A stretch of 64,000 nt of DNA from assembly GCF_900116555.1 (NCBI RefSeq), contig NZ_FPAT01000016.1, forward strand, positions 1 to 64,000. The letters run 5' to 3'. Position 1 is the stretch's first letter. Every line of letters begins with the position of its first letter. The notes below the pieces were generated by a model. The model was given only the letters and a program-made list of their open reading frames with translations. It was not told the DNA's origin and did not search any database. This stretch comes from Actinopolyspora lacussalsi subsp. righensis. Its GTDB lineage: Bacteria > Actinomycetota > Actinomycetes > Mycobacteriales > Pseudonocardiaceae. Shown in pieces: positions 22,481 through 64,000 of the stretch. The position numbers and the translations under genes were made by a program.

Positions 22481-22539
22481 CTCCCCTCCCTCACTACTTG
22501 GTAGGACTGTGTCGAGGCGGTTTGCGTATTTGGTTCCGT

Positions 22540-22641
22540 GGCGGAACCTCTCGCACGGCTCCCACTGCGGGAGGCCCGACATCGGGTAGCGACCTACACA
22601 ACGTCGGGCCTTCCTCGCGAGAGCCGCACGGGAGAACCCGC
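22540..22641 (+). repeat. Structured intergenic repeat, copy 1
   Basis: This 102-nt element begins GGCGGAACCTCTCG and ends GGGAGAACCCGC. Its centre is an 8-bp stem, GGCCCGAC (22573-22580) with GTCGGGCC (22603-22610), closing the loop ATCGGGTAGCGACCTACACAAC-type sequence with an inner GTAG/CTAC pair. Outer stems bring GCGG and CCGC together with facing AAC bases. Two more copies occur at 35936 and 63764. This copy lies between the polyol dehydrogenase stop (22767) and deoR (22480), antisense to both, and lacks the distal module found at the other two. Confidence 0.8.
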
Positions 22642-22766
22642 AGCGGTGCCGGCTGCGTAAGTCGGCTGCGCCGCTTGACCGCAGCAGGCGAGAGCGGCCC
22701 GGTCGAATCCCGGGTTCGTCTCGTCGGGAAACGACCGTGCGGGTACGCGAGACATGTCCGGAATCA

Positions 22767-35900: not shown

Positions 35901-35935
35901 AGGATCGTCGGCCCGGTCTCGTCAGTGGGTCGCTT

Positions 35936-36131
35936 GGCGGAACCTCTGGCACGGCTCTCGCTGCGGGGCCCCGACATCGGGTAGGTACTACACAACGTCG
36001 GGGCTTCCTCGCGAGAGCCGCACCGGAGAGCCCGCGGCGGTGCCGATCGCGTGAGTGGTCGGAGTTCGGCCCGCGAGGGTGGTCTGGGGTTCACCTTCGG
36101 CGAAGCGCTGCGGCGATTTCGCGAGAAATTG
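35936..36131 (+). repeat. Structured intergenic repeat, copy 2, with distal module
   Basis: The 100-nt core (35936-36035) matches copy 1. Its central stem is GCCCCGAC (35968-35975) with GTCGGGGC (35997-36004), changed from copy 1 by paired substitutions. The loop and the GTAG/CTAC inner pair are kept. A further 96 nt ends in a shared block CGAAGCGCTGCGGCGATTTC followed by GCGAGAAATTG (36101-36131), also present at copy 3. A GC palindrome, GCCCCCCGGGGGGC, follows at 36131-36144. The element lies between the converging ends of ptsH and aroE. Confidence 0.8.
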
Positions 36132-63633: not shown

Positions 63634-63690
63634 ACCGGGGAACGCCCGCGTGGTCGGGGCCAGGCGGGCGTGGCGCGGCCCCGTCGGCGT

Positions 63691-63864
63691 CAATTTCTCG
63701 CGAAATCGCCGCGCCGCTTCGACGCAGGGCCGAGCTCCCACCACTGCCGCAGCCTGCACCGCCGCGGGTTCTCTCGTGGTGCTCTCGCGAGGACGCCGGA
63801 GACGTTGTGTAGTAACTACCCGATGTCTCCGGACCCGCGGCGAGAGCCCGCGAGAGGTTCCGCC
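63691..63864 (-). repeat. Structured intergenic repeat, copy 3, with distal module
   Basis: On the minus strand the 101-nt core (63864-63764) begins GGCGGAACCTCTCGCG. Its central stem is CCGGAGAC and GTCTCCGG (63796-63803 with 63825-63832), unlike copies 1 and 2 in sequence but paired in the same way. The loop ATCGGGTAGTTACTACACAAC is nearly identical to the other copies. The distal block with ATTTCGCGAGAAATTG (63691-63721) matches copy 2. The element lies between the converging ppiB and relA genes. Confidence 0.8.
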
Positions 63865-63898
63865 ACCCGCACCGTCGAGCAGCCGTACCGAACGACGG

Positions 63899-64000
63899 TC
63901 AGGCAGCGGAGGTCATGCGGTACACGTCGTACACTCCCTCGATGTTGCGCACGGCCTTGAGGACGTGCCCCAGGTGCTTGGGATCGCCCATCTCGAAGGA
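63899..64000 (-). CDS. relA: RelA/SpoT (p)ppGpp synthetase, C-terminal ACT-domain end (truncated by window edge)
   Basis: The frame ends with [19 protein letters not shown] and [13 protein letters not shown], the typical end of the regulatory ACT domain of actinobacterial RelA, just before a TGA at 63899. Only 33 residues are visible. It converges with ppiB, the conserved Rv2582-Rv2583c arrangement, which supports the identity. Confidence 0.85.

Follow-up and report, generated by a model that had tools for sequence, protein, structure and literature searches.

Bacterial MITEs are small, non-coding, dispersed and palindromic, and intrinsic terminators and other 3′-UTR hairpins place a hairpin just past a stop codon. 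The repeat described here shares these traits, being likewise small, non-coding, dispersed and palindromic, with a hairpin just after the stop codon. Unlike for MITEs, however, no target-site duplication and no parent transposase were found for it, and unlike intrinsic terminators it has no T-run and is followed by a second hairpin downstream at two compared sites. Sections of PMC3733652 and PMC3116915 describe the GTAG- or CGTC-tagged REP and REPIN elements as high in copy number, extragenic and mostly 3′ of genes, with hairpins that carry compensatory changes, single-half remnants and a patchy spread, and all of these features recur in our element. It differs from them in its single 104-nt hairpin, in the missing unpaired GTAG/CGTC tag at the foot, in the absence of any RAYT found in the source genome, in its sense orientation and tight stop spacing, and in its occurrence in a family of Actinomycetota. 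Elements of the IS200/IS605 family (IS608, ISDra2) are described in part of PMC6006769 as oriented with the lagging-strand template. The same orientation was found in two of our genomes, G020 and G021, but the effect is absent in a third, G061, and the element also differs from this family in having no transposase gene, a far longer hairpin and no tetranucleotide target identified. The element behaves like a REP/REPIN or an IS200/IS605-type hairpin but failed two defining REP tests here, those for the tag and for a RAYT, and we therefore place it more broadly among the dispersed palindromic repeats. At about even confidence, we read it as a non-autonomous repeat, present in many copies and REP-like in its behaviour, which as single-stranded DNA forms a long imperfect hairpin from its plus strand. 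A search of open-licence papers found no description of this repeat family; the main text of PMC3733652 does not mention "actinobacteri", Saccharopolyspora, Streptomyces or Amycolatopsis, nor does PMC12306157 mention Saccharopolyspora, Amycolatopsis or Actinopolyspora.

The window, which is the whole stretch of 64,000 nucleotides that was analysed (Actinopolyspora lacussalsi subsp. righensis, contig NZ_FPAT01000016.1), contains three copies, found at the places where the first-pass annotation had put them. The hairpin cores lie at 22539-22643 on the plus strand (copy 1, 114.3 bits), at 35935-36037 on the plus strand (copy 2, 118.0 bits) and at 63762-63865 on the minus strand (copy 3, 109.4 bits), the strand of copy 3 being absent from that annotation. 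The repeat extends past the core originally quoted. Conservation sets in about 25 nt 5′ of the core, giving a conserved left segment with approximate limits of 22513-22538 (+), 35910-35934 (+) and 63866-63890 (−) for copies 1 to 3, and in the alignment a partly conserved right tail follows copy 2 at about 36038-36090 (+) and copy 3 at about 63716-63761 (−). All three copies had been placed next to gene ends, which holds, with copy 1 as an exception: the stop codon of a PTS HPr gene (PF00381; 35628-35900, +) lies 34 bases upstream of copy 2, and copy 3 lies 33 bases past the stop of a minus-strand gene ending at 63899, whereas copy 1 is inverted with respect to both neighbouring genes. The central stems of the three copies read as reported and are paired within each copy. 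Predicted folding of each copy beats 200 of 200 dinucleotide shuffles on both strands (z −5.0 to −9.0), with z values of −6.0, −6.0 and −5.0 for the plus-oriented strand of copies 1, 2 and 3, and the reverse complement has the more stable predicted fold in all three.

Other repeats were observed around the element. A second small palindromic repeat of the GCGATTTCGCGAGAAATTGAC type, here called module C, often follows the element at many loci, in the window at 36108-36130 and 63690-63715; its pattern occurs 15 times in 160 kb of origin-side samples and 0 times in 120 kb of terminus-side samples of G061. A third dispersed repeat, module D (GTGAGTCGGCGCC..GAGTAGCGACC), was seen at loci L382 (G002), L195 (G004), L102 and L126. 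In G002, about 90 nt that end in GAGTAGCGACC are inserted at the stop codon between two GACTGA sequences, which may be a target-site duplication. A short hairpin of the AAGCGGCT-CGCCGCTT type is also often present within about 60 nt past the core in Saccharopolyspora and Amycolatopsis (by eye; L281, L242, L207 and many other-genus loci).

The element is abundant in its source genome. A 12-base motif from its left side occurs 121 times in the 4.92-Mb genome, against 2 occurrences of the reversed pattern. A covariance model was built from 22 copies (R1; E of 0.01 or better) and gave 143 matches in the source genome (perhaps at least 143, with 150 candidates scored), so that further copies do exist; 132 matches were found in G061, a genome of the same species, and 141 distinct ones in G003 after removal of two double-strand duplicates. 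Among 61 genomes of relatives, 15 contained a match: all nine congeners and 6 of 28 other genomes of the same family, whereas none of 24 genomes from other families of the order did. One congener, G006 (4.2 Mb), has only 3 matches, against at least 65 in each of the eight others. A wider model, R2, made from 72 copies of several genera, matched 78 of 297 genomes and 15 of 46 genera of the family, under strict filters and with the best 13 or fewer candidates scored per genome. A pattern scan of a collection of species genomes returned at least 119 stretches, and the 80 listed belong to Saccharopolyspora, Amycolatopsis, Halopolyspora or Actinopolyspora. Loci of the window's genus share about 90% identity over 2.5 kb with a locus of A. 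xinjiangensis, from which the genus was taken to be Actinopolyspora. The spread is thus patchy and limited to one bacterial family as far as tested. The pattern scan found no match in viral contigs, and BLAST with one copy each found none in plasmids or phages. Likewise, no Rfam family matched in the window at gathering scores; a permissive search with four copy-bearing loci returned two sub-threshold microRNA matches, both outside the copy.

The core forms one hairpin of about 104 nt. For its analysis we used a structure-blind alignment of 72 copies, composed of 56 of the 80 tabulated copies, six from the search of relatives and ten further copies of the genus; the 24 tabulated copies left out are mostly near-duplicates and partial copies. 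In this alignment, 26 pairs are 96.5% standard and 15 pairs vary on both sides, pair 16/100, for example, being GC in 28, AU in 19 and CG in 18 copies. Cells changed on both sides number 208, against 46 in shuffled alignments and 27-47 with slid partners; in the slide control the structure is flattered, as it was derived from the same alignment. The proposal that the hairpin is kept by matched changes, first made on three copies, therefore extends to copies from several genera, with covariation far above that of shuffled sequences. Outside the variable stems, the near-constant motifs are GCGGAACCT, CTCGCT.CGGGAT, GTCCTCGCGAG and GAGAACCCGCGG, and the hairpin foot carries a 3x3 loop AAC/AAC, GCGG-AAC-CTC/GAG-AAC-CCGC being present in nearly all 72 copies.

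The mispairs bear on the strand and the molecule in which pairing is maintained. A single pair in mid-stem is constant, being G-U in 69 of 72 copies; this counts against the single-stranded-DNA reading, as it favours plus-strand RNA at that position. Without this pair, we counted 18 G-U, 26 A-C (equivalent to G-U on the other strand) and 40 other mispairs in the 72 copies. Strand-neutral counts, in which copies below 45 bits were left out and the copies are related and hence not independent, gave 312 mismatches that are G-U on the plus strand, 693 that are G-U on the minus strand and 708 others in 125 source-genome copies, the constant foot loop supplying 241 of the 693. The corresponding numbers are 229, 247 and 517 in 65 Saccharopolyspora and Halopolyspora copies and 24, 47 and 91 in 10 Amycolatopsis copies. 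The variable stems therefore show no G-U excess on the plus strand. Such an excess would be expected of a plus-strand RNA, and its absence fits pairing at the DNA level, either by selection or by correction between the arms. The paired stem changes could alternatively come from template switching between arms, and one rival explanation is built on this: the palindromes would be relics that neither function nor move today, and template switching or gene conversion would keep their arms matched. It would accommodate the paired changes with few intermediates, the fact that most compared sites are shared within the species, and the central stems, which are perfectly paired in 83 of 117 source-genome copies and imperfect in 34, some of the latter joining arms of two subtypes. 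However, arm correction should erase asymmetry, and the unpaired motifs are asymmetric in nearly all 72 copies; together with the lineage-specific occupancy, stop spacing and fork orientation described below, this makes a mere relic improbable in our judgement.

Placement relative to genes was scored with genes called by a codon-usage caller trained on the window, which is not a curated annotation, and copies closer than 60 nt to the start of a locus or 160 nt to its end were left out. On this basis, 106 of 129 distinct source-genome copies have a same-strand gene upstream and 23 have none. By gap type, 59 of the 129 lie between convergent and 7 between divergent genes, 45 in sense and 16 in antisense between genes of the same direction, and 2 are without a called downstream gene. 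For sense copies flanked by a called gene on each side, the start lies 25-50 nt past the stop codon in 93 of 104. Uniform placement within those gaps would predict 10.9, and 0 of 20000 simulations gave as many as 93; the median stop-to-copy distance is 36 nt for copies at 20-60 nt. Stop spacing is also seen in other genera, with 38 of 53 pooled copies against 8.4 expected (the Actinopolyspora loci L260 and L267 left out), and in G020 and G021. As conservation begins about 25 nt before the core, the element itself begins about 11 nt past the stop, presumably near the edge of the terminating ribosome.

This arrangement speaks for the main rival, a selected 3′-UTR RNA element for termination, 3′-end protection or processing, in which a useful transcript hairpin would start just past the terminating ribosome. 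Sense placement and the 36-nt spacing in the genus, in the pooled other genera and in G020 and G021 agree with it, yet 23 of the 129 source-genome copies have no same-strand gene directly upstream. Its predicted RNA fold is stable and contains the constant mid-stem G-U pair, but the plus strand shows no general G-U preference. Moreover, no T-run follows the hairpin, CGGTGC.. or a similar sequence following the core in the listed copies (by eye), and some genomes have, at two of the sites compared, a terminator-like hairpin further downstream than the element (also by eye). A plain intrinsic terminator was rejected as sufficient owing to the missing T-run. We consider a selected RNA element possible but doubtful, given these observations and those on replication and site history.

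With the origin placed by dnaA, copies thin out from origin to terminus in two chromosomes of the genus, numbering 20, 25, 21, 17, 22, 11, 5, 8, 2 and 1 per tenth in G061 and 26, 24, 17, 19, 20, 15, 7, 10, 0 and 3 in G003. The largest copy-free gaps measure 1.29 Mb in G061 and 1.23 Mb in G003, and the terminus-side stretches without a full R1 match are G061:C1:14,030-1,304,239 and G003:C1:1.48-2.71 Mb; the gap in G061 is not wholly empty, as one sampled terminus stretch contains a left half. Orientation with the replication fork was found in two other genera. In G020, 35 of 38 listed copies (46 matches) are co-oriented with the fork, against 102 of 157 sampled genes (Fisher 6e-4), and in G021 90 of 112 listed copies (125 matches), against 98 of 182 sampled genes (Fisher 3e-6). 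Gene direction cancels in convergent gaps, so a fork effect there is separate from gene bias: 9 of 11 copies in such gaps of G020 and 15 of 17 in G021 follow the fork (pooled 24 of 28, about 9e-5 by our own arithmetic), in a sample of 20 of the 46 G020 copies, including all three listed anti copies, and the 40 top-scoring of the 125 G021 copies. The plus strand thus lies mostly on the lagging-strand template in these two genera, and fork direction deciding in convergent gaps is a further point against the selected 3′-UTR RNA. In G061, fork orientation does not go beyond gene bias (92 of 132 copies versus 92 of 126 genes), and 14 of 26 copies in convergent gaps are fork-oriented (50 of the 132 copies examined). 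One might also think of a chromosome-organising DNA site, selected around oriC and oriented with replication, which would explain the origin-centred spread and copy-poor terminus of G061 and G003 and the fork orientation in G020 and G021. We regard this as very improbable, since orientation adds nothing to gene bias in G061, the terminus gap is weaker among the listed copies of G020 and G021, the congener G006 has only its 3 matches, and the module C repeat is likewise missing from the terminus samples.

Comparison of orthologous sites revealed lineage-specific occupancy. The window, G004 and G003 carry an intact element at the copy-1 site; G061 and G007 retain its left half, G008 has a degraded version and G001 has none. 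At the copy-2 site, the element is intact in the window, G061 and G007; it has collapsed in G004, and G008 and G003 show degraded versions. G001 and G005 lack it there and have a short terminator-like hairpin after the stop. The copy-3 site is whole in the window and G061, reduced to a left half in G007 and a right half in G004, diverged in G008, and lacks the element in G003, G001 and G005. Conversely, two further sites are occupied solely in G001 and G005 among the eight genomes compared. A copy lies 33 nt past the dnaA stop in G061 and G003, two species, which would suit a selected 3′-UTR RNA, and none was found after dnaA in G005, G006, G020 and G021. At another site, compared by eye in all ten genomes of the genus, the copy is whole in G061, G004, G003, G008 and G002. 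What remains in the source genome and G007 is a left half that breaks off at an identical tip base in both but differs in its right junction; G005 and G001 have no hairpin but keep part of the left segment, and G006 has a native hairpin only. Such loss or halving of copies between close relatives argues against a selected RNA. Within the species, the flanks of 26 of the 30 top-scoring G061 copies match source-genome loci pulled for a copy, indicating that recent movement is rare, and no movement was seen in this comparison. Few empty sites were compared and their flanks have diverged; they gave no clean target-site duplication for the element.

In this genus, many half copies stop at the hairpin tip. 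Its loci contain 184 distinct left-motif sites, of which 149 are uninterrupted, 22 break off at positions 25-94 and 13 earlier still; in 11 of the 22 partial left arms the end falls at the tip (positions 50-56). When orthologous sites are merged, 9 of 18 are tip-ended, against about 1.8 expected for an even spread by our arithmetic. SbcCD-type nucleases cut hairpin tips, and end joining can follow. The tip-ended halves may have arisen by tip cutting of this type and end joining. Symmetric tip cutting was rejected, as right-only copies are rare: from loci partly pulled by the left motif, 136 of 140 right-motif sites are whole, 3 partial (one tip-ended) and 1 short. Selection against deletions into the gene could explain this rarity. 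In other genera, tip-ended halves were not clearly seen (1-2 of 12 partial copies among 140 left-motif sites).

A mobiliser was sought in the source genome, which has six Y1_Tnp matches. None of these six Y1-transposase loci contains the element, and the RAYT model gave 24-31 bits, against a cut-off of 80, on five of the six proteins, the sixth being a partial match outside the scan. The five scanned proteins are IS200/IS605-family transposases (loci L031-L035), and the open reading frame beside each transposase gene looks to us like TnpB. Four proteins encoded between two close same-strand copy pairs, out of 33 close pairs listed, include no transposase; they are an acyltransferase, a superoxide dismutase, a barstar-like protein and one without a family. 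The GTAG in the element is paired, lies at the tip and is not conserved outside Actinopolyspora. Reading it as a REP tag was rejected, there being no unpaired GTAG or CGTC at the foot and the core measuring 104 nt against a palindrome of 20-40 bp. An integron attC cassette was also rejected, as the copies occur on either strand, dispersed along much of the chromosome, and form no arrays. The genome of G006, with its 3 matches, is a natural place to seek a lost mobiliser.

Of the readings offered in the first-pass annotation, a REP- or MITE-like element fits best, a structured RNA fits less well and a plain terminator lacks the T-run. The RNA reading is weakened by the missing G-U excess in the variable stems, the tip-ended halves in the genus and the fork orientation in two genera, and most likely the element behaves more like a small mobile DNA hairpin than an RNA gene. 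As a mobile DNA hairpin, copies would spread as single-stranded DNA and insert where the same strand lies exposed, which may be the lagging-strand template or the non-template strand at gene ends. A putative protein would drive this spread in trans, and the constant unpaired motifs, AAC/AAC near the foot and the mid-stem bulge, could serve as its recognition marks. Exposed hairpins may sometimes be cut at the tip and then rejoined, yielding half copies, and in the host the element would be transcribed as a 3′-UTR hairpin. More tentatively, and with more doubt than conviction, it may represent a RAYT-independent class of single-stranded-DNA mobile hairpins in Actinomycetota, which would target a short stretch just past stop codons where the non-template or lagging-template strand is exposed, and would be moved by a putative novel enzyme that reads bulges rather than sequence.

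The element puts a structured spacer past the stop codons of many Actinopolyspora genes, and it occurs in Saccharopolyspora and Amycolatopsis too, both known as producers of natural products, yet it matches no Rfam family. Cutting of hairpins may have left a natural record in the tip-ended half copies. Stop spacing and fork orientation provide two simple, measurable rules that might reveal what guides the site choice of palindromic repeats, a question that concerns REP elements in general.
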